Shown in pieces: positions 1,188-62,221 of a stretch of 64,000 nt of DNA. The position numbers and the translations under genes are program-made. The stretch is from Sacculina carcini (lineage: Eukaryota; Arthropoda; Thecostraca; Sacculinidae): NCBI GenBank assembly GCA_916048095.2, contig OU696584.1, positions 8,165,444 to 8,229,443 of the forward strand, read 5' to 3'. The notes under the pieces were generated by a model. The model worked only from the letters and a program-made list of their open reading frames with translations, was not told the DNA's origin and did not search any database. Position 1 is the first letter of the stretch. Each line of letters begins with the position of its first letter.

Positions 1188-37485
<36,298 letters not shown>

Positions 37486-38378: not shown

Positions 38379-39320
38379 TTACTGGCCGGTGTAGAGAGGA
38401 GAGCGTTTCTCGCGAAATGCCGCCAGTCCTTCGAGTCGGTCGTTTGTGGGAATCACTTGAGCGTAGCACGCTTGTTCTATAGCCAGACCTGTGGCAAGAT
38501 CGGTCTGCATGCCTCGATTAATTGCCTCCTTGGCCATCCGAACTGCCACCGGGCCGCACGAGCAGATCCGCTGAGCTAGTTCCACGGCTCGCCGGTAGGC
38601 GGCGTCTCCGTCGCTGTTCTGCTCGGCCACTTCATCAACGAGGCCAATTCTCCACGCCTCCTCCGCATCCACCGTTTCCCCGCTGAAGATGAGCCGCTTG
38701 GCTCGGCTGGCTCCCACGAGACGTGGCAGCAGTTGAGTGCCGCCCGCACCAGGTATTATGGCCAGCCGGGTCTCGACCAGTCCCATGCGTACCCCCCTGT
38801 GTCCCCCATCCCCATCGCCGGCCGCCACGCGCAAGTCACACGCCAGAGCCATCTCGAGGCCGCCGCCAAGCGCCAGTCCGTCGAGCGCCGCCAGTGTGGG
38901 GGTCGGCAGCTCGCGCAACTCGCTCATGAGCGCACGAGCCGAGCTGACGAACGGCGCCACCTCGACGGCCGACATGGCAGCGCGCTCCTTGAGATCAGCG
39001 CCGGCGCAGAACACGCCCGGCACGAGACTGCGCACCACAAGTGCACGCACGCGGCTGTCGTGGCGCAGATGTTGCAAGTGCCGGCGCATCTGGTCGAGCA
39101 GATGGCGACCAATGGCGTTTTTGGCACGCGGTCGGTCAAGAACCAGCACCGCCACGCCCTCTGGCGGACCAGCCACGAACTCGAGCTTCACTTCACTCTC
39201 AGCGCAGGATTCTGGCGGCGTCACGTGCGAAATGCCGCGCACAGACACCACTGAGCAGGCCAAACTTGAGCGGCAAGAGGCCAGGCGCGCCATTGCACGC
39301 CGAGGACCACTCACGAGCAT
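38379..39320 (-). CDS. AUH: 3-methylglutaconyl-CoA hydratase (AUH type), intronless
   Basis: Enoyl-CoA hydratase of mitochondrial leucine breakdown, converting 3-methylglutaconyl-CoA to HMG-CoA; the human protein also binds AU-rich RNA. Seen: crotonase motifs VPGVFCAGADLKERAAM (oxyanion hole), DGLALGGGLEMALACDLRVA (first catalytic Glu), MGLVETRLAIIPGAGGTQLL (second Glu) and the C-terminal AIEQACYAQVIPTNDRLEGL, closely matching AUH rather than general crotonases. The first 40 residues (MLVSGPRRAMARLASCRSSL...) are Arg/Ser-rich, as in a mitochondrial presequence. I chose the Met at 39320; the frame is open up to a Met at 39524. One exon only, with an extra GDGDGGHRG loop after DLRVAA. Lys residues of the human RNA-binding helix are mostly Arg/His here. 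Tail-to-tail with Cav3. Confidence 0.93.
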   Translation of the reverse strand: MLVSGPRRAMARLASCRSSLACSVVSVRGISHVTPPESCAESEVKLEFVAGPPEGVAVLVLDRPRAKNAIGRHLLDQMRRHLQHLRHDSRVRALVVRSLVPGVFCAGADLKERAAMSAVEVAPFVSSARALMSELRELPTPTLAALDGLALGGGLEMALACDLRVAAGDGDGGHRGVRMGLVETRLAIIPGAGGTQLLPRLVGASRAKRLIFSGETVDAEEAWRIGLVDEVAEQNSDGDAAYRRAVELAQRICSCGPVAVRMAKEAINRGMQTDLATGLAIEQACYAQVIPTNDRLEGLAAFREKRSPLYTGQ

Positions 39321-39929
39321 GGAAGCAGAACAGGTCTCGATTGTTGACACAAACGAAGGCGCTATACACAGTTTGACGCTAGAAACTGGAATAAATTTTA
39401 CGACAGACGGCTGAACTACCTGAATAATACAGGACAACAAATTTCTGCGGCAAAAACAGCACCAAACAGTGAATATTGTACAATTTTGCACGATCATTTC
39501 ATATCTGGTGTTAGTTTTTCTCAATGCTCTTTGCTGTTACGCATTGACGACTCATTATAATCAGTCAATGCGTAACAAGAACCAAAATGTAAGAATGAAT
39601 TCTCATCATTAATATCAGTTCAGTATATTTCACATCAGTTCAATTCAATTCAATTCAATGTATTTGTTATAGCGCCTGTCATACACGGGCGCGCAGCAGC
39701 TAAACAGTATGTACAAGCGGACAAAGCTAAACAGTTATTACAGAAACAATAAAAAGAACACATGAATGAATAAATATAACACGATTCAAATAACACAATG
39801 AACACATTTACACAATGAGAAGAACACATTGAAGAGTGATTGAAGAACACAATAACAGAGTACAATGAACATAATTAGACTAAAACATAGATAAACACAA
39901 ACATACATGCATTCCCGCTCACACACATA

Positions 39930-43383: not shown

Positions 43384-46300
43384 ACGTTGTGACGGTAAAA
43401 ACGGGGACATGGATAAAACGGGGACATCGACGCATTTGATACAAGCTCTGACGCATTTGAAGGGATTTGAAGGAATCTCACTGTATGGTGTTAGGATTTT
43501 GAAGGAATTCTAAGATTTTTCACCCAACCTGGTGCATGTCTACTGTATGGCGCGGTGGCAGTAAAGTAACAAGTTGCTTGGTGAAAATGGGGACATCGAC
43601 AAGTCTCTATTGTTATTTATTGAAGTTATAGGGTTTGATTTCGATGCATGCTGGTTTTTATTATTGGAGCATGTTTGCTATTGGGAATATTTATCCGTTC
43701 ATGTTCCATGCTGTCATGAACTTTTACCGTTTATGTAAACGTTAACAGTTGATTGGACTTGAGTAGTGAAGTTATGTTTTTGTTGTTTGCTCTTATTTGT
43801 CTTTTTCCTCATTTTTGCTTCGTATGTCATTGAAGAAGTATATACGTTATGAGCATATACGTATATACGTATATACGTAAGTATATACGTATATGAGCAT
43901 ATACGTTTTTTGTCGTCAGACATCTCAATTTCTGTTTAAGTTTCGTTGGCTCCCCATTTTTCATCGTATTCATTTTCTCCTTTGCTGTATTATTTTTAGA
44001 CCTATTCACGACCCTAGTCAACCCTCTTATCTTTCTGGTATCCTCACTGTATCTACTGCTCCTCGTCCTCTTATTTGCCCTAGAGCCTTGAACGAGTCAT
44101 CTTGGTCTTGTAAGTATTTTTCTTTCTTTGCTCACCGACTGGACAACTCGCTTCTCGTACTGTTCTATCAGCCACTTCCTAATCCTCATTACGTTCGGCA
44201 CTCTTTAGATTCGTTTTGGCGGCGTCAGCAACCACTAAGCACGTTATATCATTTGAATGTGTACATGCAGTGTGCTTGTTGTGTGTGTGTGTGGTTGTGC
44301 GTGCTTGTTAGTGTGTTATAGCCAGTATCGTGTTGGACTAGTGTGTGAATACATCCTGTAACTTGTGTTGTAACTGTGGAAGCGTTTCCCACGTCATGTT
44401 TCCTTTTGTCAGTTACACTTGTGCTCGTTCATGTTTTGTGTTTCTCTTTGAATATTTTTGGCTCATCTTGCTGTTTTATGCGCGGGTGTTTTTGATATGT
44501 GCTATACCAAATAAATGTGAATGTTTGTGTTTTGGTCATTGTATGACGGTTTTTGTGGTTTACTTGTGTTCAAAAACAATTTAGTTTATATGGGAAGTTT
44601 CGTTAGCAGTTTACCACAGGTATTTGTAGCGTTGTTGTTCTCGATGGCGCTTCGGTCGATGTCGACCATTCCAGTTTTAAATTGATATGTATCAGTTAAG
44701 ATGACCGTGAAAATAGTTGCAAACCTTGATCTGATTGTCACAACACCAATATGTTGAGATGTTGATCTTGGTCTTCGTCGTTCGGCTGATCGTGAAGTCT
44801 TCTGAGTTCCTCTTGTTGTTGTGTTCCGCGATAACAAGTAATAGTCACCCAGTGGAAGTTTAATTGTGTATTGACAGTAACCAGTCAGCTCTACTACCTT
44901 AAAGCTACTACTAAAACTAAATCTCTAGTCTCTCCAGTATCTCTAGTCTTCATAGTCTCCCCAGTATTCATTATCCATTCTCTGTGTCTAGTATCTAGTC
45001 CCAGTCTCCGGTGTCCCGCCCTATTTTCAGCACAACACGGGTATATATACCCACGACCACATGTCGTCGGCTCAATGCGTCACAAGTAATGCGAGTTGGC
45101 CAAACAGCACGGCTACACAACCAGGACACACGCTATTTCTAAACATGTTCTGACTGCACACACGCGTGTTACCATGATCTGTTCAGCCAAGTCAGACACA
45201 CAAAAAGGTCATAAATTAACTGTCAAGTTACTTCACACATTACCAATCATATCAGGCGCAGTGTACTACTGTCGCCACCCAACCACAAATGAGCCTAACG
45301 ACAGCTGCACAAGCAGGCCGCGAAAAGAACGCGAAAGTAAACTGAGAGAGCGAAAAAACTGAGTAAACTGACGGACAGAAAACTGGTCTGATTATAACTG
45401 TTATACTGATATCCAAGTAACATTTTGATTCTTTTGTCGTATTTTCAGTTTCGGTTAGTTACCTACTTTTCATTTGTTATATTGTCAGTCCTACATTTGT
45501 GGATCGTGTGCGGTGCATCACATGCTTGATGCGCTCTGTTATGTCTATAATGAAGACATGTCTGTGAAGAAGACATTGTTTATTATCGAAGCGTTTCCTG
45601 AATGTTGGCTGTTTCCTGACAATACATGACTTATTTCCAGCTCGCCTGAAACTCATAGTTTCACCATGTCTTACTGAATCATACTTTGTTCAGCCACTGG
45701 GATAGCTGAGTGTAATGCAGGTGTCCATGTCCACATGTCCCCCTTCACACACGCACACATACACAAGCGCTGGCACACGCAGCTGGTCATTGGTCCGTTG
45801 GCTGTTGGAGCTCTCAGCCTATCCGTTGATCTGCCAATGATACGCGTATTTTACAGCGTGCTTCATCTGGAAGTATCACCTATTTGAATGATATTCGAAG
45901 AAAAACAAAATGAGGAAAAATACGATCAAACAAGAAGAACATCACTTCACTAGATAAGTTCTGTTAAACATCACTTCACTAGTTCAGTTCTGTTAAACAT
46001 CACTTCGCTAGTTCAGTTCTGTCAAAGACGTGGTCATAATGGAGGCAATGTATTATCTGTACTCAGCAACAGCAAGCAGCGCAACAACTCACTCAACATT
46101 CGCGACTGCGCACGCACACACTCCACTTCAGGATGGACAAACAAGCATATATACAAATCAGACATAGTCATACGCAAGCGGGCGTACCAATGTAGTCACA
46201 CACAATGCAAGCGAATTCTACACCCAAGGTCGGTTAGCGAATGTACAAGCCTGTAAAGACACGTTTACATCAACAAGTTCAATCCACTATTTACACGTTT

Positions 46301-47000
46301 ATATAAACGATAAAAGTCGATTTCAGATTTGAACATTAAACGAAAAATACTCCCAGTAGCTTATATAAACTCAACACTAGCCCGCACCAAAAACAAACCC
46401 TATGACTTCAATAAATAACAATAGAAACTTGTTGATGTCCCCATTTTCACCAAGCAACTTGTTACTTTACTGCCACCGCGCCATACAGTAGACATGCATG
46501 CATTTACGTATATACGTATATACGTATATGCTAATAACGTATATACTTCTTCAATGACATACGAAGCAAAAATGAGGAAAAAGACAAATAAGAGCAAACA
46601 ACAAAAACATAACTTCACTACTCAAGTCCAATCAACTGTTAACGTTTACATAAACGATAAAAGTTCATGACAGCATGGAACATGAACGGATAAATATTCC
46701 CAATCGAAAACATGCTCCAATAATAAAAACCAGCATGCATCCAAATCAAACCCTATAACTTCAATAAATAACAATAGAGACTTGTCGATGTCCCCATTTT
46801 CACCAAGCAACTTGTTACTTTACTGCCACCGCGCCATACAGTAGACATGCACCAGGTTGGGTGAAAAATCTTAGAATTCCTTCAAAATCCTAACACCACA
46901 CAGTGAGATTCCTTCAAATCCCTTCAAATGCGTCAGAGTTTGTATCAAATGCGTCGTTGTCCCCGTTTTATCCATGTCCCCGTTTTTACCGTCACAACGT
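43384..47000. mobile_element. Long inverted-repeat (foldback-like) element
   Basis: The left arm 43384-43848 and right arm 46536-47000 are inverted copies of about 465 bp with only a few differences seen by eye. The ends read ACGTTGTGACGGTAAAAACG / CGTTTTTACCGTCACAACGT. The palindromic ACGT could be a 4-bp TSD, giving a TIR of TGTGACGGTAAAAACGGGGA. GGGGACA motifs repeat near the ends, candidate transposase sites. A partial extra copy of the right arm lies at 46396-46500 and diverged copies at 45890-46360. No transposase seen; probably non-autonomous. Confidence 0.85.
43905..44330 (+). pseudogene. L2/CR1-like RT C-terminal fragment inside the inverted-repeat element
   Basis: CRQTSQFLFKFRWLPIFHRI, LLCCIIFRPIHDPSQPSYLS and CPRALNESSWSCKYFSFF match the C-terminus of the neighbouring LINE (FRWLPIKSRIHFKICCIIF). 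It starts right at the inner edge of the left arm. The rest of the spacer (44331-45880) has no recognised gene. Confidence 0.75.
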
Positions 47001-47651: not shown

Positions 47652-50600
47652 ATGTCTGACTTGAAGGAGTTAGCGGACGACTGGTCCGAACCGGAGCTAT
47701 CAGGCTGTGAGTCAGAATCATGTGTATCTAAGTGTCGCAGCAGTGCAAATTTAGGCTCTGGTCATGCCTCAGTCGGTGCTGGCGAATGCTCCATCAAACT
47801 CGAGGATGCCCGTTGTAAATCTCTCAAGGTCGAGAGTTGTTTTCGCTCTAATGAAGCTGACAACTGCACTGTGTCTTCTGGAGATGATTGTGCGACCCAT
47901 TCGTCCGTTCTTGTAGGATGCAATGATGTTGGTACAGTGTCGCAACAATCCAATGTCGGTGTTCACTGCTCTGTACAATCAGACCGACGTGATATCGCTG
48001 ATAATTTCAGTAGCACTGACAAGGAGGATCCTGGTTGTCAAGCGCTCGTGGAAAGACCGGCTAATGAGGAAGAAATTTTTGGTGAACTTCCGCCCACAGC
48101 TGAACTTGCTTCTGAAAAACGTCAACGATGTTTAATTACTGCACAAAATGACGGGATCAGCGGTAATTGTTATACGACGGAGGAGCAAGTCACTCTTGTG
48201 GATCAGACTCATCAGAAGCCTAGAATTTCTGACGCTCAAACTTCCAATAGCCACACTGCAGAATCACTAACTGCCTTTTGCCGTAAATTTTCCGCAAAAT
48301 CTGCAAAACACTCGGTTGTTTCGTCGAATATCAGTGATGGGATGGGCGGCAGTGGTGTCGATAGCTTGGTCGTGGAAGAGCTGGGCCATTGCTGGCCAGA
48401 TGGGGTGAGCAGCTGCTCGGCGGAGGCGGAGAAACTGGCGCGCGACGAGTTTGTCGTCTCTTCCACCACGACCAGTTCTCCAGGCGGCAAACAAGCCAAT
48501 TATCAAGAGACTACTGTGAAGGGCGCGCGCTCATCCGACAGCGCCGAGGTGAAGCAGCTCACGTGTGACATTGATTGCGACTCGTCTCCCCAGGGTCCTT
48601 CACCAAAAAAAGTCAGGCATAACCCGGACGTTGCAATGAACGACACATCTCTGGTTGCTGGCAATGCTTGGCCGAGTGAATCTGATGGGCCGTGCACATC
48701 TGTTGCGTCGTCTTGCAAAGAAGTCCACGTGTCGCGCGACGCAACCAACGTTCCACCAACACCTTCCTCATCATCTTCTCCACGTGCATCTTCACTGAGT
48801 TCCAGACAGGATTGCAGGACTGATGTAGCGGCCGACTCGCTGCCTACTTCCACCGGCGAGGACCAGATATCAACTGTCTCGTGCTCTACAGACCCGAGTG
48901 TCGTAAACACCTCGGCTGACGACTCTTCTGGACGTCGTATGCGCCAGACAACCATATCGGCGTCCAAGGCTTCCTATATGGACTCGGTTCAGCTGGCTCA
49001 GATGCGCAGCACTGGCAAATGCGTCAGTCCCACGCGGAAACACACGACCGCGGCGTCTCGCTCTCCTTGCGGCGACACTAGTGAGGTGGTTGCCAAGTGC
49101 TCTGCCAGTGAGGTCGAACAGCCTTCCTGTGCCGAACAAGACATCACGTTCTTCGACCGCTTCTCGGCGCTGGAGCAGACGGCGTTCGCCAGCTGGATGA
49201 CACGCAAGAAGAACTTGGACGTGGTGTTGGCGCGGTTCAGCGTGGATGCCAGCGTTTTGCGCTCGATGCGGTCGGCTGCCACTCGAGCGCAAATCAAGGC
49301 TTTCCTTGCACGTCGAGCCGAGCTTAAGGCGGCGCAAGTCGGCAGTTCGCCGCGTCGTCGCAAAACCCCGTCCAAGAGTCAGCAGACATCGCTTGTTCCC
49401 GCCCAGCCGCCCACCACCAGCGACCGCATCGAGCGCGTGCAAACGATCAGACAGGCGGTGGAGCTGGTGTTCCGCACCGAGATGTCGGCCACCCAACTGG
49501 AGCGAGTTCACCCGGTGAGTCGCCGCACGGCACGCACCATCGTCACGATGCGGCGACAGGGCTGCAGTGTGCGGCGCGTGCTCGAGTGGTGCGTGTGCGC
49601 CGAGGTTTGTCGCAGCGACCGCGTCTCAATGGATGCCGCCCTGCGTCTCGTCGTCTCGTCCAAGAAGGGCACGCAGGCCATGGCCTCCAGGTTCGGACTG
49701 AACGTGCACGTGCTGGCTCGTCGCGCCGAGGAGGCAAAGTTTCTGCTGGGTCGCGATATAAGTCGCTCGGTGGCTCGCACCGCTGCCCTGTCGGCCGGCT
49801 CTTTGTCGCAAGATGAAGACCAGCCGGTCGGAGTGGCGAGAGCCGGGAGCGCGACAGACTGCGGTCTGGACCAGCATGAAGATCACACCAGTCCTGGAGC
49901 ATCATGTGTGGAGCGTCTTGGATTGTCAATCAAGCAGGAACAACACCACGACAACTGCGAGAACATCAATTGTGATTTGGTGAACGCTCGGGACGGCACG
50001 GACCAGACATCGAGTGCTGGCGGTGGTATATTACGCGTTCGTCGCTTCTCCACGTCCAGCTGGGATGCAGTGGGGCAGGCTAGTGATGAGTCGGCAATGA
50101 GCGGAACCAACTGTTATACGACTTCTACAGCTGCTTCTGCGACCCACCGCTCCGGCAAGACGATGCTGATTAAGAAGCGAGGTGCGTGTTCTGCTAGCAC
50201 GTCTTCCCGAGTCCGACATCGCTCGAAAGTCTCGGCTCATCACAGCTTGCCGTCCAAGAAATCATCGGCATCACATGCGACAGCCGCCTCAGCCAAGCAT
50301 GGCCGCCAGACTACCATTGACGGGGTGTCCGGGCGGGTGGTTGTGTCGACGCACAGTGGCGGTGTTTCTCCGTCACGTCACGACTGCTCCTCAACGCCGG
50401 GACGCAGCAGTGGCCGGCTGGTGAAGCCGTCACATCGCGCCGTCGCCGCTCTCGTCAGCAACAGCACAACCAGTACCATGTGGAAAATGTTCAGCCGTCG
50501 ACTAGTGCCAGCCAAGACCAACAGACCAACAGGCGGCGGCGGTGGAGCTCTTCATGACGCTGTTAAAACAGTCCACCGCTCCACTCACAATGTAGCCGGT

Positions 50601-50891
50601 GAAGCCGGCGGGCGCCAGAAACACACGCGACGGCGCCCCAGCTCGGCTCAGTTGGCGGCGCGTGCTGAACGTGCGGCAGTGGCGGCGCGGGATTGTCGCG
50701 TGCAGGGTATCAGCAGCAGCGAGGCGATCGCACGCCACGACGTCACGCGCGGCGAGCTGCGGCGGGCGCAACGTGCCGTGCGTCGGCTTCCTGACGTGCG
50801 ACAACTGCTGGGCCGCCTGCACCGCCATCTATCGGCCGTCACCGACATGATCAACGGTCACAGCTTCGAAGACGTCTGCGCCAAACATTCG
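47652..50891 (+). CDS. Chromodomain gene exon 1: disordered N-terminus and HTH segments 1-5a
   Basis: Start ATG chosen at MSDLKELADDWSEPELSGCE, the first in-frame ATG after the acceptor at 47583. HTH-like: WMTRKKNLDVVLARFSVDAS (1), QAVELVFRTEMSATQLERVH (2), RLVVSSKKGTQAMASRFGLN (3), VQGISSSEAIARHDVTRGEL (4). The exon ends inside HTH 5 at MINGHSFEDVCAKHS, donor GTATGC, phase 0. Confidence 0.85.
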
Positions 50892-53800
50892 GTATGCCTG
50901 CCAGTGTATGTGTGTTCATACGTTCATATGTTTATTTGTCAACACATCATTTATACAGGCAATTCACATGATAACAAAACAATGTTGACTATGCCCTTTA
51001 AGCCTGGGGCTTCTTTTGGGCATATGGTTTTAACTAATTCAGTGTTCAGTAATACATGTTATAACACGTTGACAACACGATGCTTACATGCAATGACAAA
51101 ATACAAAATATGTAAGCATACATTTTAAAAAGCAGTATTAAAAAGTGGTTTCGGGCAATCACTAACATATTCGTGCCTTTATTGAGCCCCATCATATTGG
51201 GTTTCATCACTGCTCAATATCTGGAGTCTGAGTGTCTTTTTGAAGAGGTGTTATTTGCGTTGTGCCAATAGTGATTTTAGTTGTGTGGTTAGTGTGTTAA
51301 ATGCTGTGTGTGTGTGTGTATGTGTGTAGTCACATTGTATTAGTATTTTGTTCCTGTGATGAACATTTGTGTTTTGTCTCTCCGATGTCTAGCACCTGTG
51401 TTGTTGTTGTGCGTGTATTTCTGCTTCGTTCTGATGTCTATGGTTTCGGCTGTGTTTCGGCTGTGGACCATTCGTTCTCTCTCCTTGGCGGTGATGATAA
51501 TTTTAATTGCAATTACAGCCTTTTTCTGCATATGGCTCGCTGTCAATTTTGTGCGTATATGTGTGTGCTCATGTGTTGTTCACAGATATCACAGATGGCG
51601 CTGTTGTCGACACTGCAGCAGTTGCGACAGTCGGGCCTTGTGTCGCCGTATTTCGGCCGTCGTCGGCTCGTGTACGGCCGGGACGATAATGGAACCTGCG
51701 GCGGCGGTGGCAACACACAAGACAGCAACAAGTCCGCCACACTCCGATCTCCCACAACCACCGAGCACTCAACTGGTTCTGCTCCGTGTCACCATGGTGA
51801 TATTGTAGATCCTCCGCGTGTGACAGATGCTCTGTCTGATGGGAAAACAGGAGCAGCGGCATCTAATGTTCGGCTGTCTTCACGAGCGTCTTGTTCGCAA
51901 CAGGCTGATGTGGGTGCCCGGCAGGAGACGAACTCTTCTTCCTCTGTCGCAGACGCGCCTGACCAGACAGACACAACCACGGTCAGTTTGTTTGAGCGGC
52001 GAATACAGCGCGCTCTGGCGGCAAAACGCAGCGGTCTCTCTTACTCGCAGGTGAAGAAGCTGTTTGGCGTGTCGTCGGTGAGTTTGTGGCGCTACGTTAA
52101 GCGCCAGCAAATGGGACTCGTCGCGTCGACCAGTGGGGGTGACGGTGGCGCCCTCTCACGGCTGCCATCCACAACACTGGCGGCTCGGCCGAGCACAAAC
52201 CTCCCGGCATCTCAGTCTCCAACTAGCGTCGGCGTCGTGCCGGCCGACAGACGGACAGACACTGTGTTCCCCACGTCACGTGCCAACAGCACGGCGGTCA
52301 GTGAGGCCGTGACGCTCGTGCTCGACGAGGGTGTGAGTGCACGCACTGCCGCCCGCCAGTGTGGCGTCAGCTATCTCACGCTCACCTACTTTATCAAGCG
52401 TCGTCGCGACGGCCTGCCGCTGTTTCGCCGCTGTCTGGAGGCGGTCAGCGCGTCGTCCAGTGACGTGGAAGTGGCGCCGGTGAGTGACGGAGCGGCACGA
52501 CGCTTGGCGGCGGCTGCTGCTGCGTGGCGCGGCGGACGGTTGCCGGCGAGAGAGGCGGCGCGGCAACACGACGTACCGCCGGCCTCTGTCATAGTGACTG
52601 CGTGGCGACAGGTCCGTCAGAAGCGAGTTCCCTCCGCCGCCGCGGCCGCCGGCACTCATTCATCCTCCACTGAGACACGTCAGCTCGAGCAGCTGCACCG
52701 CTTCCTGCGCCGTATTTCCGCCGTCGACCAGCAGAGCAGTGTGCGGCGTGGCGTGTTGGAGAGTGCGGCGGCGCGGGCGTGTCGTCTGCCCATGTCCCTG
52801 GTGCGCTACCTGGTGCACGCGCAGTCCAGCGACTTCGAGGTAATCTACGAGGCACAGGCGGCGGTCACCGGCGGCATTGAGCAGTCTGCAGACGAGCACG
52901 CGCTCCTCTCACAGCAACAGTCGCAGCCCGCGGTAGTTCCATCTGCTGCCGTGCCAGAGGGCGCTAGTGTAGCCCGTCGTCCCCGTCTTGCAGTTGATCT
53001 AGGCAACTCGGCGGCGTGTCAGTCTCGTGCAAGAGGCGTGCGCGTGCTCGATGTGATCAGTCCGCAAGTGATGCCCAGTATGAGCGTGTGTGGGGGCCGC
53101 TACCACCCACCTCCGCCCCTCCCGTCCTCACAGCAAGAGGCTGGTGCTGGTGCTGCCCCCTATAAACAAGGACAGGCAGATAGTTCATTGCACAAGACTG
53201 TGAATTTGACGCCGCAGAAACGACCCACTTCTCTCCCATTCGACACGGTGGGTGCTCATAATGGCTGGCGTGTTGATGTCAGTTGTTTCTTCGATGTTTT
53301 TCTGTTCGAGTTGATATTTCACGTGGTGTTTTTGTGTTTTTTTAATAATATTTCGCTTGATCGAAGTCGCTGAAAATCGACACGATTACTGGATCTCCTA
53401 ATTGATCCTCCAGTATTGGCTATGTGAAATTTGTTCGTGTTTTTTGCTGGACTGCAATTCATGTTATTGGTGCGGTTTTATTGGCAGTCTCCAGTCAAGA
53501 AATCCCCTGCGCTCGCTGTCGTTTCTGAACACTGTGACGTGTCTGGTGGCGCCATCTGTGTGGCAAATAGCGACAACAGTAGTTCTGCTGTAGTGCCGCC
53601 GGGAAGCGGTGTAGAACGCACGCCTGAGCTCCGCTTGCGCCAGGCCGTCGAGAATGTTTTGTTGACGGGACAGAGTATTGACGTGGCTGTGGCTTTGTTT
53701 GGTCAGGCAACAGCCAGTGGCGATGGCGAGGATGCTACCAAGCCTCAGCCTTCGTCGTCTGTAGAGAATTTTCGCTGTGCATTGCAGGTGAGTGGGTTTA

Positions 53801-56800
53801 TGTGCGGTGGATGAAGATATTTGGTTTGGGGTGAATTTTAACAGTACTTTTCAACTTTTTCTCATGAAATATTGTTTAATAGAAGAGTAGAATAGAGGTT
53901 AAAGATTAAAGGCTTCAAGTGACAGCTGCTACACGGGAAGAAGCCGAAGCTTATGAACACACACAGGTGTGTCCCGTGCAGCTCGCTGCCACCACAGAAC
54001 CAACCCTCTCCACGCTATGACACCACAAGGACGGAAGACGTATTAGAGAGGACCACCTCCCCAGAATGCATGACACAACACATGACTGATATCTGGTACT
54101 ATCATTTACTGCTGGGTGAACAGGGGCTGTTGGATTATAGATTACGCCCAATGAAATTCTGCTCCGCCGGGTTTCGAACTGCGGATCTCCCGCTTGTGAG
54201 GCGGGTGTACACCACGGAGTCCAACATTGAGCCATTTGTGTGTGTGTGTGTATTTATTACAGCGCGAGCTGGATTTTGGTGTGGGTAAGCCTGGTAGACA
54301 AGCACCGCGCATTTGTGACGAGTTGTTTGTGGTTCAGTGCACATTGACTCTCATATCTTCCGGCTGGGACGTCAACTTCACCTCTCTTGTGTGGATGTTC
54401 AACAGGTGAGTGCTTTATTATATTTATATTATATTTATATTTATATGCTATTATATTTATATGTCTTTTTTATTATATCATATATTACCATCGTTATAAC
54501 AAGAGTTTGTGGTATTCAACGTTTAATTCATTTGTATTCAAACTGTGTGGTAATATTAATCAAATTCATTGAGTGCACGTGAAGTTTTTGGTTTCGTATC
54601 TGGTGTTTTTGCTTGGGTAGATTTTTGTCTTTTCCGAAATATTTCTATATTATTTCGTTATGTAGGTTTTGTACTAGCTTGTGTCACCTGTTATGTCGGA
54701 TTTAATCTCGAGATATATTTCTGGCGAGGTGGTGGTCGGTGTTGAGGCAATGTCACGTGTTTTTGTCGCAGGTTTTTGAACCGCACCGGTCGCAGTTGTG
54801 AGAAGGGCCACTCATGGCTGGATCTGGCATCACTGGCACGCCGCTGGCCCCAACTTCATGGTCAGAAAGAAATAAAGAAATGTGTATTTTGCTCAGACTC
54901 AATAAGAGTATGGAGCACAGCTCCGCATCAAGTAACAGCGGTGTAAAAACAACAACAACAAAGCACAACATCAAAAACAACAAACAATTCAATATGACAT
55001 CATATATGAATCCAAATATGCAAATTCCCAATCATAATGCAACAAATCACGTATTTAACTTAAATGCTTGTTTAAGAAACCTAGCGAGATTACGCTGCTC
55101 TTGTACATTATTTGTTTGCATCAAGTTAATGAAACTATATGTATTTACACAATTATAAAACTTCCGTGGGATATATATTTGTCTCAGGTATTCTATTTGT
55201 TCATTTGTGGCTGTATGTGGAGGTTGTGATGTGGCTGTGATGAATCTTATTAGATTTGTGATGATGTCTATTAGTGAGCGGGTTATTTGCGACCCTTAAA
55301 GTAGAAAAATCACCCTTAAAAATTGTGGGTCGTCTTATACAACCGTTATAAAAGTCAGACCTTGAATTCTGCGTGCATAATTTTTCATTTTACATTAGAA
55401 AATCAGTATCATTTTGGTTGTAAATAAAAATGGTTGATTACAAACACCTTTATTTCTCAATAAGAGTAGGTATTACAGTACAACATCATCAATATCAAAA
55501 ATCAAACCTGCTCCATATGTATATCTAAAACCCATCAAATTCATCTCCATCATCACTGTCTGTTTCGAAAAGTTTTTCCAATACATCACGAGATTCATCA
55601 CAGATGCCATCATCGTAGGGATTCCATTCCAGTCATTTTAGCATACCGATATATGATGAATGCATAAAATTTGCTCTAATTTTGTACCTCGTCTTATCTG
55701 ACGGTCGCCTTATACGCCGAAATATACGGTAATTCCATTTTTGATGCTGCTGTTTTTGCAGGCGCTATTTGTGCCGAGCGCGGAAAACCGAACGCCGATT
55801 TTCGCGAGGCTTTTGATAAAGCGTTGTCGGTGATGCTGGGGCGATACAAGGTCATATCAGGTCATCGACCTCTCTGCCCACCAGGTCAGCTTTTATATCG
55901 ACGATTTTTGGGCTGTAAAAGTGCCTTAAACATCAAATAAGATGTGGAGATGTATTGTGGTGGATTAGCTGTTAAGCCAGCCATCAGCTAATGTGTCAAT
56001 ATGCATTCAGTTGTTTTTCGTTTTTTTTCGTGTGTTTGTGTTTATTTTTAGCTATACATAAGCCTTCTATTTCCACCAGAGCGGCTTATGGATTGCGAAA
56101 AAATGACTATGAAAATGTTTGGCAAATATATTAGTAAATGAATGAATTTGTGTTTGTGTCAATTGCTGAATACACAAATCATCCAGGCGATTGAATTTAT
56201 TTGTCATTTATCGTAGGCGTATTGTTGTAATCGATTGCTCCTTGTCAATACGCAGGCTCGGGCAAAATCTTGTCATCATCGAGGCGGTCTTTTATTCGTC
56301 AGCGACGCGTGACAACCGCTGATACTGGTGCACGTGAGGGGGTGACTGAAGAGGCGGCCGCTCCTGTGCTGCCTTCTTGCTCGTCTTCTTCGTCTGTTTC
56401 TCCGTCGGGAGAGGTTGAGTCTGAGCTGTGCGGCGGCAGTTCTTCTGCCTCGCGTCCTGTCACTCCTTCACCCACAGAAGTATCAGCAGTGGACTCCACC
56501 CCAGCCGAGCAAAATTGTGCAGAAAGTGCGCGCTCACCGGCCACACCGCCTTCAAACAGCAAACAAACTGATGATGCTGTGCCCGTGGACGACTCGATGT
56601 CCACGGACGTCATATCGACAAACGTATCTGCCCGCGCGTCCGACGATTCGTCAAAGTCATTGTCTCCGCACCAAGATGACGTGTTTTTCTCGGGCAAGTT
56701 CTGTCTGACTCCGTCTCCTGCCACGTCACCCACTGAGACGAAGCCGTGCCAGTCACCGTCCAAGAAATCGGCCGATTCTGCATGTAATATCTCAGTTTCG

Positions 56801-59800
56801 CAGCCTGAACAAACTGCACGGCAATGTGACGACTCCCCAATTCAGCTCGTGCAGTCTGAGCAGCCGGAGGTGCAGCAGTCTGAGGTTCACGCGCTGCTCC
56901 CTGATGTGGTGTCACCTCAGCACGTCACCTCTGAGCTGCCACCTCACGAGACCATATCATCACAACATCACGCGCTCTCTGACACATCTCCCGGCGACTC
57001 GAACAAGACGGAGACGCAGGATGACGCAAGCTCGGCGAAATCGAACTTTTCTCACGAGGAAGACTCGAGCGTGTCGGCAATGTGTGACAATTCTGCTATC
57101 TCGCTGACTGAAGACACCGTCAACGATAATATTAAAGATGTTATCGCCGAACATTCGACAACAAATGCATTGTCTGCCGAATCTTGTGCGGATACAAAGC
57201 CTTTAGCGGCAGCGGCAACTTCGCCGACAGAAACAGCCGATAGCGTGAAAAATGTGCAGCCAGCCAGTGTGGGGACGGCGGCAAACGATACAGAAACCAA
57301 CGACGTGAGTAAACTCTAACTAACTGACTGACTAATTGTGCCTCTGTGTGCATTTTGTGTTTTTTACGTGCGTGGTTTTTATGATATTTATTTTTCCACA
57401 TGGACTCCGTGGTGTAGTGGTAGCACACCCGCCTCATAAGCGGGAGGACCGTGGTTCGAATCCCGGCGTAGCAGAATTTCATTGGGCGAATTCTATAATC
57501 CCACAGTCCCTGTCCATCCAGCAGTAAATGATGGTACCAGATATCAGTCATGTGTTGTGCCATGTATTCTGGGAGGTGGCCATCTCTAATGCATCTTACG
57601 TCCTTGTGGCGTCATAGCGTGGATAGGGTCGGTTCTGTGGTGATAGGGAGCTGCACGGGACACACCTGTGTGTGTTCATAAGCTTCGACTTCTTCCCGTG
57701 TAGCAGCTGTCACTTGAGCATTTCACCATTTTAAGCTACTTTTACTCGTGAGTTTTGCGTCTTATTTGTAATTTTGATAATTTGTTTTATGTGGTTCCAG
57801 GCGGTTTACGAGGTGGAGGCGATTCTGGCGTCGCGAAAAAATTTCAATCTGCACAAAACCGAGTTTCTTATTCGCTGGAAAGGTTATACCGAGTGAGTGA
57901 GGTTACACCATTTCAGTCATATTATTTCTGCTCGCTTGTTTTTTTCTAACAAACATCTTAATTTGAGTTTCTTCCGTCGTACACTTTTGTGGCATTTCAC
58001 TACAGCAGTCCAAAATACAAGAACTTCTTAACGTGAAGACTCACATGCTGCCATATCTAACGTGAATTCATGCGTTGTCTTTACGTCATTGTGTTGTTTT
58101 TTCAGCGAACACAATTCGTGGGAGCCGTCGGAAAACCTGAATTGTCACGACTTGCTGGTGCTCTTCAAGAATGGATGGCGAAACTTGAGCAAAAAACGCC
58201 GTCGTCTCATTGTCGGTAAGGCCCAGTGCTATTGAACATGCTTGTTTTACACTATGTGTGTGTGTGTGTGTGTGTGTGTGTTATCCATGCATCTTGATCA
58301 TCAACAAATACAGACAGACAGAGAGAAGAGAAATAGCATAAGAAAATATGAAATGGAACTGAGCTCTTGTGTGTGTGTGTTGTGTTTTACGTTCAGATCA
58401 CTATTGTAGAACTGACAAAACTGACAATTTCGACGCAAATGATGCTAATCAACAAACGCTGGATCTCGAGGCTGCGATTGTCAGGTACTTCCGCGTGATT
58501 TTATCTATGGTCTTCTATTTTGTTTCATATTTGTTCATATTCTTCTATATCTGTAGTTGGGCCATTTTTGCTGTTCTGTTTTTCTAGTGCGTTTTTTCAT
58601 AGTTTGTCTATCACATTTTCCAGCTTCTCTCAGTTGTCTCCGAAAGAAGCAAATTCCGCCGCCGTGTCAGAAAGTTCTGCCGACAACGCTGGAACATCGT
58701 GGAGACGGCTTTCGTCCAATGATGTATCACAAACTGACGACATTGTGACGTCATCGACCGTAACTGACCAATCAGAACCGGTGCTTGCTGTGACGTCACC
58801 GATAACCGACCAATCAGAATCGACTTCTATCAGCGTCAGACATCGCAGTGCAGTGACAACAAGCAGTTCAATTGAACGATCAAGCCGGTTCGTGTCCGGG
58901 GGTCAATTCCATGTTAAATTCAGTGGTTTCCAAATTTTATCTATTGTGACATTGCTTTAGAATATCACAAGTGCGTTCAGCTGAAGCTAAATATTAACTT
59001 TGCTATTCTAATTATCCTAATAATTTATTAATTAAATATTAAATTTGCTATTCTAATTATCCTAATCATTGATTAAAAGTATTCTAATTTTTCCCAACAC
59101 TGACAGATCAACGAAAAAGCGGGCCAACGCGTTGTTCAAGCAATGGCTGGTGCGTCGATCTCCCAAAAGACCGACAGCGACTGTTGTGAAACAAGCTGCT
59201 AGCGATCAGGCCTCTCCTGGTGAGAAAACTCCATAATTATTAACATATGCTGGCGTTTCAGTATGCCTAATTAGCTTCTCACTTGATTTCACATTGAGAT
59301 ATTTGATTGGATTCAACCGCTCGGCAATGCTGATTAAAGCTTGCAATTTAATTAACTATGCAATATTCTAATGATTATTCAACAGGTGGGATTTAAATAG
59401 CTGTATTCAGATACTTGTAGATTGATGCCAGTTGAATAGTTGTTCTGCTCCCATCTTCACGTTTGATCACATATCAACCATTTATTTTTGAATTTACTTT
59501 GAATTTATCCTGTCAATTGTGTTTCTTTTGATTCCTGTTTTTTTCCATTTTAAAGTATTAATCGAATTCTTTCTTGAGTATTCTTTCTTTTCTCTTGTCA
59601 ACGACTTGCCCACAACTCACCATTGTCTCTTGTTCGTCTGCTTTGTCAGCTCCAGTGCGAGAAGCCGGTTCATTGGACGAGCAGCAAACGCCGCCAATGT
59701 CCCTGGCACGAGAGCCGTCACCACCGCCTGAAACGTCAGCCTCTGACAGTGCCGCGGATCGCCGTGAGCAGCAGCATCTGCTACCCACACAGCACGAGCT

Positions 59801-62221
59801 CGACAAGCTTGATGTTGCGGATCCTGTTGCGGTGATGTTCGAGGATCTGGACGATGATGAGGAAGTTGCTGACAGCCTGGCCGATGATGACTGCTTGTCT
59901 CCGCTGAAAAGTCTTGAGTGGAGACCGTCGTTGTTGATGGACGAGGGAGGTAGGCAGGTCGTGGCAGGGGGGCGGGGCCGAGGGGGACGCAGCGGTTCAT
60001 CTCGAGTCGTTCATCTGCCGGACACGGGGGGTAATGAAGCAGTGACCAGCGATCATGTTGCAGTCAAACCGCCTGTGCTGCCGTCCAGCCTTACACGACC
60101 GTTCAAGACAGTCAAGAGAGGTCGTGGTGCCACGAGAGGTCACACCACGAGAGGCCGTGTCTTGTTTAGTAGCAAGGCGCATCGAGGCCTGGCCCGTGGT
60201 GGAGGCAAACATTTCCATGGCCTTGGACACGCCGCTTCCACACCACCTGCCTCGGAGTCGGCATCGCCCCGGGCGCCGGACACGGCTCACAGCGACTCGA
60301 CCGCTCAGAGTAGCGCGGTCGCCGGGCAGACGCTGGGCAAGCGGGTGAAGAAACTGCCAGCCCGTCTTCTGGACTCGGAGATATTCGACGTCTCGTTGGC
60401 GGCCGATAACAACAACGTGGTCGACTTTGAGTCGCTCACCATCCTGCCCGACGATCACGAAGACGGGGTGGATAAGCGGACGCAGCAGAAACCACCTGAC
60501 CACTTGTCAACCGACGCTTCCGCAGGCGATGATATCTCGAGCTTCCAATTTGTCGGAGCGACCGATGTAAGTTTCGGTGGTGACGGAATGCTCAACGATC
60601 AGTGTTCACCGGTCAAATCGGCTCACAAACATGGCGGTGGCAGGCGCATGAAAGTCGCCGTCAAGCCATTCAGCCAGTCTTCCGCCCAGCTGGCGTCGCA
60701 CGTGCAACCGATCCACAATGAAGACGAGCTGCATCAGCTGTCTGACACGGCCGGAATCACGTTGTTGTCGGACGACGCAAGTGTAGTGGTTCTGGATCAC
60801 GGTCCATTGGTGATCAACGAGCAGGGAGATCTTGTGCCCGCCAATACTCACTCCTCCAGCTCACAGCAGTCCAGTAATTCTGCATCGCCGGCTGTCTGCG
60901 TGCCCTCCAGCAAGCTGGGCGCTGGCAAGTGGACCAAGAAAGCGGCCGCTGCTGTTGTCGTGAAAAACGCCAAGAAGAAATGGGCCCTGAAGAAGGCCGC
61001 CTCAATAAATGCTGCTCAGGCAGGTGCCATCACTTCTCAAATGGTTGCGAGCGGTTCACTGGCGCGTGTTATCATACCCAAGAAGCGAGGTCGTCCTCGC
61101 AAGTACCCTCTGCCCGACACCCCCGCGCCCACGCCGTTGGGGGTGGTGGATCCAGGGGTGAAGCCCATGGTGAAGAAACAGCCTGCAGCAGTGATGGTGA
61201 ATGTTGCCAAAAAACGTGGTCGTCCACGCAAGAACCCGCTGCCGCATCAAGGCGTCGGCAATGTCTCGACGCCGGCGGCATCTCGTGAGACATCTGGTAA
61301 CGGTGCCGCCGCCGCTGACTTGTGTGTCCAGAACAACTACGTCGTGTCGTCCTCGCCTTCAGACGAGCCCCCGGAAGAAGTGACTGTGGATCTCAGTTCT
61401 CTGTTGGCGGGAGACGCTCATGCAGTCGACACGTCCGTGTTGTCCCTGCACGAGTCGGCGGACTCCTCCCACCTGCTGGCTGCACAAGAAGACGATGAGT
61501 GTGTGGATGATGAAGTCGGCTATTTCGACGTGAACGGACAGTTTATTGAGCGTTCTCCTGCCAAACCCCCGTCTTGTGTTCAACCACCACCCACCCTGGT
61601 GCTCAATTGGACAGACTCATCGGGCGAGCAAGTTCCGCTATCCTCTGCTGATCTACAGCCAGGTGGGCCGCGCTACAATTGACTCATTTTATGCACTGGT
61701 GGATGCAGAGGGGGGCTGAAGTTCCCCTCCTAAATGTTTCCTATCAACTCCTCATAACCAAGAGGTTCACACTAAAAGAAGTCAAGAAAAATATATTTCT
61801 GTAGAATTTATTGATGTTAACATTATTGTGGAGCGTATTCGCACTTTGTTTGTGTTTATATCATTGAAAAACGCCCCAAGTCATAACCTTCACACGCTAT
61901 CTACTCACTCATACATATTTCGGCCTCCCAAAAAATGCACTCTGGATCTGCCACTGATTTCATGTCTCACAATGAAGAAATATTCACGCCTAAATCTAAA
62001 TCTTCAAAACTGTTCCTACTACTTATTTACTTACTTACTCAGGTGATGTTTAAAGTCTGTATTTTTTACTTGGATACAATTTGTTGTAAGTGAATTTCCA
62101 ATTTTACTCAAAGAATCGCAAGTTGATACAATGTTTTTATTTGTGTTTTTGCTCAGATGTATTGAGTGCCGCACAAGAAGGAATTATTCTGCTCATGAGC
62201 GACAAGCAGAACAACCAATAA
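47652..62221 (+). CDS. Giant HTH-array / chromodomain / AT-hook protein, 14 exons
   Basis: Exons 47652-50891, 51586-53247, 53488-53787, 54263-54405, 54772-54860, 55762-55884, 56256-57304, 57801-57892, 58106-58215, 58397-58484, 58624-58887, 59107-59219, 59650-61662, 62157-62221. All 13 junctions keep phase, giving 3117 codons. Layout by residue: acidic Ser-rich N-terminus 1-490; helix-turn-helix-like segments near 500, 593, 659, 1004, 1056, 1216, 1316, 1384, 1449 and 1681; a helical Cys/Trp-containing block about 1735-1855; a long acidic Ser/Thr region; chromodomain about 2203-2260; AT-hooks near 2902 and 2944. Likely a nuclear chromatin protein binding DNA and methylated histone H3 (inference). 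The HTHs look like the Pipsqueak/CENP-B family. I do not know a named protein with this layout. The last splice is optional: read-through stops at TGA 61680. Confidence 0.82.
51586..53247 (+). CDS. Chromodomain gene exon 2: HTH segments 5b-9
   Basis: Opens ISQMALLSTLQQLRQSGL, completing HTH 5. Clear Pipsqueak-like units: RALAAKRSGLSYSQVKKLFG then VSSVSLWRYVKR (6); EAVTLVLDEGVSARTAARQC then GVSYLTLTYFIKRRRDG (7); AAAAWRGGRLPAREAARQHD then VPPASVIVTAW (8); a divergent one around SVRRGVLESAAARACRLPMS (9). Donor ACG|GTGGGT, phase 0. An acceptor 9 bp later (51595) is also in phase. Confidence 0.85.
53488..53787 (+). CDS. Chromodomain gene exon 3: HTH-like segment 10
   Basis: Exactly 100 codons. 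SPVKKSPALAVVSEHCDVSG then LRLRQAVENVLLTGQSIDVA then VALFG, the front half of another Psq-like HTH. Acceptor TTATTGGCAG, donor CAG|GTGAGT. Confidence 0.8.
53894..54225 (-). mobile_element. tRNA-derived SINE, copy 4
   Basis: Inverted copy in the intron between exons 3 and 4 of the chromodomain gene; its head lies only about 35 bp from the exon at 54263. Anticodon stem-loop GCCTCACAAGC retained; B box GGTTCGAAACCC. Confidence 0.83.
54263..54405 (+). CDS. Chromodomain gene exon 4
   Basis: RELDFGVGKPGRQAPRICDE, then TLTLISSGWDVNFTSLVWMF, ending N. Helical, with Trp and hydrophobic periodicity; domain not recognised. Phase 0 in, 2 out. Confidence 0.78.
54772..54860 (+). CDS. Chromodomain gene exon 5
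   Basis: FLNRTGRSCEKGHSWLDLAS then LARRWPQLH. The donor G|GTCAGA is non-optimal but is the one that keeps phase with exon 6. The intron after it (54861-55761) contains no recognised element. Confidence 0.74.
55762..55884 (+). CDS. Chromodomain gene exon 6
   Basis: AICAERGKPNADFREAFDKA then LSVMLGRYKVISGHRPLCPP. Continues the helical block of exons 4-5. Phase 1 on both sides. Acceptor TTTTTGCAG. Confidence 0.78.
56256..57304 (+). CDS. Chromodomain gene exon 7: long acidic Ser/Thr linker
   Basis: 349 codons after the split Gly. Starts SGKILSSSRRSFIRQRRVTT and then is rich in Ser, Thr, Pro, Asp, Glu and Gln with SPTE and TSPTET repeats. Predicted disordered. Donor GAC|GTGAGT, phase 0. Confidence 0.85.
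57400..57725 (+). mobile_element. tRNA-derived SINE, copy 5
   Basis: TGGTGTAGTGGTAGCACACC (A box) and GGTTCGAATCCCGG (B box) intact, anticodon loop changed to CTCATAA. In the intron just upstream of the chromodomain exon. Confidence 0.84.
57801..57892 (+). CDS. Chromodomain gene exon 8: chromodomain N-terminal half
   Basis: AVYEVEAILASRKNFNLHKT then EFLIRWKGYT. The chromodomain cage residues Y (VYEVE), W (RWKG) and Y (KGY) are present, as in HP1/Polycomb proteins that read H3K9me3 or H3K27me3. Which mark is read cannot be told. Phase 0 in, 2 out. Confidence 0.94.
58106..58215 (+). CDS. Chromodomain gene exon 9: chromodomain C-terminal half
   Basis: DEHNSWEPSENLNCHDLLVL then FKNGWRNLSKKRRRLIV. 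The NSWEPxENL signature and the C-terminal helix of the fold, then a basic patch (possible nuclear localisation signal). The split within the domain matches exon 8 exactly. Confidence 0.94.
58255..58281. repeat. (TG)n tract
   Basis: About 13 TG units in the intron 58216-58396. Confidence 0.85.
58397..58484 (+). CDS. Chromodomain gene exon 10
   Basis: DHYCRTDKTDNFDANDANQQ then TLDLEAAIV. Short acidic linker. A TG tract lies 20-30 bp upstream of the acceptor. Phase 1 in, 2 out. Confidence 0.8.
58624..58887 (+). CDS. Chromodomain gene exon 11: Ser-rich with repeated VTS..TDQSE
   Basis: SFSQLSPKEANSAAVSESSA, then IVTSSTVTDQSEPVLAVTSP and ITDQSESTS. The repeat is caused by TGACGTCA...CCAATCAG DNA modules at 58746 and 58791. 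Donor CG|GTTCGT is weak but phase-consistent. Confidence 0.78.
58746..58817 (+). promoter_or_regulatory. Two CRE / CCAAT pairs
   Basis: TGACGTCA (58746) -14 nt- CCAATCAG (58768) and TGACGTCA (58791) -11 nt- CCAATCAG (58810). Same module as in the Cav3 exon at 4858-4998, here in another reading frame. Confidence 0.45.
59107..59219 (+). CDS. Chromodomain gene exon 12: basic segment
   Basis: STKKRANALFKQWLVRRSPK then RPTATVVKQAASDQASP. Strongly basic; possible nuclear localisation signal. Acceptor CACTGACAG, donor G|GTGAGA, phase 2 in, 1 out. Confidence 0.8.
59650..61662 (+). CDS. Chromodomain gene exon 13: acidic, RG-rich and AT-hook region
   Basis: APVREAGSLDEQQTPPMSLA; an acidic run FEDLDDDEEVADSLADDD; RG-rich stretches GGRGRGGRSG and KRGRGATRGHTTRGR; then two canonical AT-hooks IPKKRGRPRKYPLP (61077) and VAKKRGRPRKNPLP (61202) that bind the minor groove of AT-rich DNA. 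The donor CAGCCAG|GTGGGC gives the splice to exon 14; unspliced, the frame runs to TGA at 61680. Confidence 0.9.
61694..61956. mobile_element. MITE, CAGTGGCGG family, with TSD
   Basis: CACTGGTGGATGCAGAGGGG at left and TCTGGATCTGCCACTG at right. Flanks ATTTTATG (61686) and ATTTCATG (61957) are an 8-bp TSD with one mismatch. Inserted 14 bp after the TGA at 61680, in the proposed last intron of the chromodomain gene. Confidence 0.72.
62157..62221 (+). CDS. Chromodomain gene terminal exon (proposed)
   Basis: After TTTTTGCTCAG and in the required phase: VLSAAQEGIILLMSDKQNNQ and TAA. Short, helical C-terminus. The stop codon overlaps AATAAA (62217-62222). If this splice is not used, the protein ends at GGPRYN (61680). 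Confidence 0.55.

Follow-up and report, generated by a model that had tools for sequence, protein, structure and literature searches.

It is not settled how heterochromatin proteins select particular DNA repeats, and the question is raised by a locus of Sacculina carcini in which a predicted gene, located on the forward strand of a 64,000-nucleotide (nt) stretch of contig OU696584.1 (positions 8,165,444 to 8,229,443, herewith called the window), appears to combine a histone reader with two types of DNA-binding module. What protein would this gene encode, and what could that protein do? We propose, with a probability of about 0.55, that a single host gene encodes a very large nuclear chromatin protein acting as a multivalent tether to DNA and methylated histone H3. 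Helix-turn-helix (HTH) modules of the Psq type, at least three and up to about six in number, would bind DNA in the major groove, two AT-hook motifs would bind in the minor groove, and an HP1-type chromodomain would bind a methylated lysine of H3, most likely lysine 9 (H3K9me) because of its HP1-type ancestry. Long Ser-rich linkers, probably disordered, would join these modules in one chain, which may bridge nucleosomes and settle where DNA sequence and histone mark coincide, for instance in repeat-rich or silenced regions. A tether of this kind is the most likely mechanism, since two types of DNA contact and a histone reader stand in one chain, and the multivalent chromatin reader proposed in the initial annotation follows naturally from the domains confirmed below. 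Nuclear location, the binding to DNA and histone, the preference for K9 over K27, bridging and silencing are all what we infer from these domains; that the protein binds satellite DNA is a guess made by analogy with CBX2 and the Kipferl-Rhino pair (see below).

The gene model was rebuilt by hand, giving a chain of 13 coding exons that runs from an ATG at 47652 to a stop codon ending at 62221 and encodes a protein of 3028 residues. All 12 introns (181-901 nt) begin with GT and end with AG, the reading phase is continuous throughout, and the G+C content is 0.42-0.63 for exons versus 0.31-0.46 for introns. The exons are as follows, all on the + strand.

47652-50891, +, exon 1: residues 1-1080, with a Ser-rich N-terminus, the HTH candidates u1-u4 and the first half of u5
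51586-53247, +, exon 2: residues 1081-1634, with the rest of u5, the firm units u6, u7 and u8, and candidate u9
53488-53787, +, exon 3: residues 1635-1734, with candidate u10; donor CAG/GTGAGT (9/9 of the consensus)
54263-54405, +, exon 4: opens the middle domain
54772-54860, +, exon 5: middle domain
55762-55884, +, exon 6: middle domain
56256-57304, +, exon 7: linker of low complexity, Ser/Thr/acidic
57801-57892, +, exon 8: first half of the chromodomain, with cage residues Y2205, W2228 and Y2231
58106-58215, +, exon 9: second half of the chromodomain and the extension F..GW..LS
58397-58484, +, exon 10
58624-58887, +, ill-defined exon, number 11 of the initial annotation: 88 residues; donor 6/9, atypical codon-position G+C
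59107-59219, +, exon 11 of the 13-exon model (12 of the initial annotation): basic
59650-61662, +, penultimate exon: holds both AT-hook motifs
62157-62221, +, last coding exon

The initial annotation had listed 14 exons in unbroken phase. This held for the 13 exons, their GT..AG introns and the stop codon, but the fourteenth (264 nt, extending the protein to 3116 residues) was found to be ill-defined: the frame stays open with it, without it or with many other borders, and its codon-position G+C peaks at position 2 (0.59), whereas in 11 of the other 13 exons no codon position has a lower value than this one. Its donor, with 6 of 9 positions, equals or exceeds three of the accepted donors (5 for exon 1, 6 for exons 5 and 9). 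The hexamer AATAAA at 62217 overlaps the stop codon. The longest frame, of 1177 residues, was compared with the longest frames of random sequences, which reached 332 residues under the trinucleotide statistics of the region and 467 residues under those of exon 1 (300 sequences each). That the locus is degenerate or mis-assembled and makes no functional protein is therefore a very remote prospect: the gene is known from sequence alone and one exon is ill-defined, but the open frames are far longer than chance and the domain cores are intact. The predicted gene holds up as a prediction.

The initial annotation had pointed to the interval between 53787 and 54263 as a place where two genes might be separated; these would be an HTH gene of exons 1-3 and a second gene of exons 4-13 carrying the middle domain, chromodomain and AT-hooks. 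Of all the GT dinucleotides that the window has on its + strand, just two match the donor consensus in full, and these are the donors of exons 3 and 4. Upstream of exon 4 a stop codon lies in frame 22 codons before the acceptor with no ATG between, and the first Met within exon 4 is residue 1779, inside the middle domain. A break after exon 3 is unlikely, because the exon 3 donor is of full consensus and exon 4 is without an upstream in-frame ATG. For a separation speak the ATTAAA at 53905, which belongs to intron 3 and there to the stretch derived from a reverse-oriented repeat, and the recurrence in a second gene of this genome (gene B, see below) of a weakly similar middle stretch together with a chromodomain, which could thus stand alone; genes B and C, on the other hand, both seem to have an HTH-like exon first and their chromodomains after it, and this recurring order argues for a single gene in the window. 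We consider the division into two genes quite improbable and retain the single gene.

As to the HTH units, ten candidates (u1-u10) were cut out and each was scanned against the Pfam family HTH_psq (PF05225, cut-off 20.4 bits). As isolated pieces, u6 (24.8 bits) and u7 (21.0 bits) exceeded the cut-off and u8 (15.1 bits) fell below it, with nothing returned by this family for the other seven; the whole open reading frame (ORF) scored 41.7 bits. An independent profile was built from the six Psq matches of a genome-wide search (E<=0.001) and scored on 60-residue tiles, giving 11.3, 18.6 and 16.0 bits for u6, u7 and u8 versus a maximum of 9.7 among 14,850 shuffled tiles; u4 reached 7.8 bits, equalled by 5 of these 14,850, and the remaining units stayed near chance. 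When each unit was compared with 5000 shuffles of itself, none scored as high for u6, u7 and u8, the corresponding numbers being 12 for u4, 175 for u3, 276 for u10, 611 for u5, 963 for u2, 2429 for u9 and 3635 for u1. A wider profile, to which u6-u8 and the HTH sequences of both gene B and gene C contribute, gave 30 (u2), 31 (u4), 52 (u9), 64 (u5), 202 (u3), 337 (u10) and 4061 (u1) of 5000, to be taken as leads only, as seven units were tried. Models of AlphaFold2 (single sequence) placed three helices at each of u6, u7 and u8, with 10-residue block means of confidence of 83-91, 67-85 and 49-71, respectively; elsewhere these means were 79-92 for u2, 47-60 for u3 and below 50 for u1 and u9, and the overall mean was low (55.0 and 54.2 in two models). 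Foldseek listed the LCoR HTH with a probability of 0.97 but an E-value of 0.69, and u4 plus u5 resembled PapB (E 1.2e-5) under the cut-off of that family. The units with profile support, together with u5, are located as follows.

51985-52119, +, u6: residues 1214-1258, HTH_psq above cut-off
52291-52416, +, u7: residues 1316-1357, HTH_psq above cut-off
52489-52620, +, u8: residues 1382-1425, under the Pfam cut-off, 0 of 14,850 shuffles as high
50661-50789, +, candidate u4: weak profile support
50814-51636, +, candidate u5: split by intron 1

Thus u6, u7 and u8 are firmly HTH units, u2 is modelled as a confident helical fold, and u2, u4 and u5 are possible HTH units, weakly so for u4 and u5. The count of about ten in the initial annotation was overstated: three units are firm, up to three more are possible, and the other four found no support.

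The chromodomain is certain. After splicing of exons 8 and 9, it matched Pfam PF00385 with 52.9 bits (cut-off 25.1; E 3.4e-14), and the complete aromatic cage noted in the initial annotation was confirmed as Y2205, W2228 and Y2231 from the alignment to CBX1 and from the model, at positions that we take to be those of the HP1 cage. The best matches among solved structures in PDB were CBX1/HP1-beta (E 4e-11), CBX5/HP1-alpha (5.3e-11) and CDYL (9.9e-11), followed by weaker matches to CBX2 (5.9e-9) and fly Polycomb (6.3e-5). The search of the unspliced genome for chromodomains missed this one because an intron splits it. This intron interrupts, in phase 2, the codon five places past the WKGY tryptophan (TGG AAA GGT TAT ACC GA/C), and the identical codon is split in the identical phase in an HP1-like gene found in this genome (L025; TGG AAG GGC TAC TCG GA/T), so named from its chromodomain match and a chromoshadow-like stretch seen by eye. 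Six chromodomains were compared: three taken from four of the 18 rows of the genome search, one each from the window gene and gene B, and the first one of gene C. Four of them (window gene, L025, gene B, first of gene C) have this intron site and phase; the other two, a Polycomb (Pc)-like chromodomain (L026) and gene C's second one, do not. The chromodomain thus probably derives from a host HP1-type gene, as the shared intron points to such a source rather than to a retroelement.

These matches bear also on a different function, in which the protein is a Polycomb-like or euchromatic regulator, its HTHs reading defined regulatory sites, a role proposed for fly Pipsqueak at Polycomb response elements, and its chromodomain reading H3K27me or helping to bring silencers to genes, in the manner of CBX2 with its AT-hook. 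The CBX2 match named above is in line with this, and in the literature (papers are cited herein by PMC number) Pipsqueak is among the factors proposed to recruit Polycomb proteins (PMC9122586), CBX2 binds DNA through its chromodomain, AT-hook and Ser-rich region (PMC9122586), and an AT-hook recruits CBX2 to AT-rich satellite (PMC13371928). However, the chromodomains of HP1 and CDYL match better, the Pc-like gene of the genome is without the shared intron, and neither Cbx7_C (the Polycomb box) nor BTB was found by Pfam (E<=1) in the pieces scanned. We regard such a regulator as unlikely and keep the HP1-type tether.

The penultimate exon contains the two motifs that had been called AT-hooks.

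61080-61103, +, AT-hook motif 1, KKRGRPRK: residues 2814-2821
61209-61232, +, AT-hook motif 2, KKRGRPRK: residues 2857-2864

Both are identical and contain RGRP of the AT-hook core, which is given as PRGRP (PMC13371928), so that they stand as motifs fitting this core.

Is the gene alone in its genome? Two further predicted genes lie about 0.5 Mb downstream of the window gene on its own chromosome (C19), and the exon chains predicted for them carry an HTH-like start and a later chromodomain. Gene B, on the + strand from about 8712585, starts with MSDLSRAIELVQQGMDAARVSQICGVSA, followed by an intron and then SSLHDMRSS; its first two coding stretches, spliced as MSDLSRAIELVQQGMDAARVSQICGVSASSLHDMRSS, precede its chromodomain and scored 17.4 bits with HTH_psq (E 0.0036) and 20.5 bits with DUF2802, each under its own cut-off. 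The chromodomain of gene B, as spliced here, gave E 1.2e-14 and is followed by an extension, L.C...L..F..GW..LS, like that of the window gene; when tail plus extension of the two genes were aligned, none of 2000 shuffles scored as high. Gene C, on the minus strand from about 8702422, starts with MERVQKAVSLVASGESFQHVASLCQLPV/S and has downstream on the same strand a spliced chromodomain (E 1.4e-10), a second chromodomain whose end is missing (E 1.1e-11; the match covers positions 3-41 of the 53 in the profile), what may be a fragment of a third (tblastn E 0.026-0.029) and, by eye, two AT-hook-like motifs. The HTH-like start and later chromodomain of B and C argue for a small paralogous family with the window gene. 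More tentatively, and as less likely than not, the three or more genes on this chromosome may belong to a so far unrecorded family of animal genes that combines an HP1-type chromodomain with Psq-type HTHs and AT-hooks. The initial annotation knew of no family with this combination; this was modified by the two genes of the same genome, one of them with AT-hook-like motifs, and by CBX2, for which chromodomain plus AT-hook is known (PMC13371928, PMC11354804, PMC9122586). Among open-access papers, no title or opening of an abstract was found to describe a Psq HTH and a chromodomain in one protein.

For exons 1, 2 and 4-6, a copy search of the assembly (264 Mb, 43 contigs) that scored the best candidates only gave no second copy except Ser-rich matches and one stop-containing match of 28% (E 0.02). 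In a protein collection apparently poor in animal proteins, there was no homologue of residues 1735-1860 (E<=1, among 56 candidates), of residues 1200-1500 (E<=1, among the best 7984 candidates) or of the chromodomain region of a 1823-residue piece (E<=0.01, among 118 candidates). As even a canonical chromodomain found nothing, the collection probably holds few animal proteins of such size, and the missing relatives are uninformative.

Several further observations were made around these genes. A minisatellite, kilobases long, lies within gene B, in either an intron or an exon (about 1870-5600 of L036; C19:8714.9-8718.6 kb), and has several open frames on each strand, one example being VQEGSGICL repeats. 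The motif GFSxWxxVxxxHAVVC was seen by eye both near gene C (L029, 8712-9695, minus strand) and near gene B (L037, 2-2134, + strand), and may mark a C-terminal domain that the two genes share. More exons for Psq-type HTHs, with no adjoining transposase-like frame seen, occur at L017 (C29:661 kb) and L018/L042 (C2:1088 kb), of which L018 may hold several intron-split units, and L013 is an E93/LCoR-like gene also with a Psq-type HTH.

The origin of the modules brings in another function, that of a host defence factor: Psq/CENP-B-type modules taken from pogo-like transposases would aim the HP1-type chromodomain at transposon copies, as a one-chain analogue of Kipferl-Rhino. A transposon origin and independent expansion in several animal lineages are reported for Psq HTHs (PMC10027918), two of the six Psq matches of the genome lie by eye in transposase-like frames (L015, L016), and the DNA-binding protein Kipferl guides the HP1 variant Rhino (PMC9531945). 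Against this, Pfam found no transposase core in the pieces scanned. We hold a defence role, which overlaps with our best explanation, to be rather doubtful, and continue with the multivalent tether.

A number of results weigh against the proposal of a multivalent tether and of its family. The genome-wide Psq search (E<=0.001) did not list the units of the window gene itself, and u1, u3, u9 and u10 were without support as HTHs in the Pfam, profile and shuffle tests. Support for the HTHs is weak in gene B, where 281 of 5000 shuffles score as high with the independent profile, and in gene C, where 97 do; on both, DUF2802 scored above HTH_psq, although under its own cut-off. Tail plus extension of the window gene was matched by 12 of 2000 shuffles when aligned with gene C and by 8 of 2000 with HP1; as HP1 also scores, part of this signal is the chromodomain tail itself. 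Presumably at the positions of E52 and D62 of fly HP1, the chromodomain carries H and N, two contact positions unlike those of fly HP1, which leaves room for binding to K27me or for no binding. Pfam scans of the ORF and of exon pieces gave no chromoshadow domain (E<=1), the middle domain matched nothing, and Pfam (E<=1) lists no family, AT_hook included, for the frame bearing the two motifs. The analysis moreover concerns sequences of one genome of a single species.

The surroundings of the gene within the window were also inspected. Directly upstream, inverted repeats of 497 nt (43384-43880 and 46504-47000, 98% complementary, 2623 nt apart) have the appearance of a young mobile element bounded by long terminal inverted repeats. 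Heads resembling transfer RNA (tRNA) were detected by ARAGORN and Rfam at four sites on the + strand (8503-8574, 15676-15747, 19035-19107 and 57404-57473), each followed by a common body of 200-300 nt (63-92% alike) that occurs also reversed at 53905-54208 (minus strand); judged from their sequence, these repeats are a family of tRNA-derived short interspersed elements, with two copies within introns of the gene. Open frames seen by eye gave exons at about 15290-37500 (+) resembling what we take to be a T-type voltage-gated calcium channel, and at 38379-39536 (-) what is presumably an enoyl-CoA hydratase (AUH)-like gene. Long minisatellite arrays, with 89-96% matches, were found as follows.

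21978-22517, minisatellite array: unit of 22 nt
24281-25645, minisatellite array: unit of 13 nt
30577-31140, minisatellite array: unit of 92 nt
34871-35439, minisatellite array: unit of 23 nt
35672-36544, minisatellite array: unit of 16 nt

If the proposed family is real, each member would use DNA sequence to pick the heterochromatin that it occupies and would need no partner for this. The window gene would then be the member in which the HTH part was expanded to an array, a possible driver being an arms race against repeats or transposons.

Pipsqueak has arrays of Psq-type HTHs, and the predicted protein resembles Psq-type proteins (PF05225) in carrying several such modules per chain, two of them above the Pfam cut-off, but differs by its chromodomain and AT-hook motifs and by its divergent, widely spaced units; no BTB domain was found by Pfam (E<=1) in the window-gene pieces scanned. 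With HP1 (CBX1/3/5) it shares the type of chromodomain, the full cage and the intron site and phase of the HP1-like gene of its genome, and it differs by its length of about 3000 residues, its added DNA-binding modules and the lack of any chromoshadow domain in the pieces scanned. The likeness to CENP-B and other pogo-derived proteins lies in the Psq HTHs, which are described as pogo-derived (PMC10027918). Pfam (E<=1) gave neither a Tc5-type HTH nor a DDE domain in the window-gene pieces scanned. CBX2 of Polycomb repressive complex 1 is alike in its chromodomain and Ser-rich stretches and has an AT-hook motif, to which the two RGRPRK motifs would correspond although Pfam (E<=1) lists no AT_hook for their frame; the chromodomain described here is nearer to HP1 and no Polycomb box was found in the pieces scanned; to our knowledge, CBX2 is without HTHs. 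The AT-hook of mouse CBX2 targets AT-rich satellite (PMC13371928). The Kipferl-Rhino system of Drosophila likewise pairs an HP1-type chromodomain with DNA binding that is sequence-specific (PMC9531945), but as two proteins and with zinc fingers, whereas the predicted protein is one chain with HTHs. The compared examples thus rely on a separate DNA-binding partner, as Rhino does on Kipferl (PMC9531945), or on an AT-hook, as CBX2 does (PMC13371928); with a putative reader of sequence and mark in a single chain, and relatives with other numbers of domains nearby, the question of how particular repeats are selected would become testable by swapping or removing modules.
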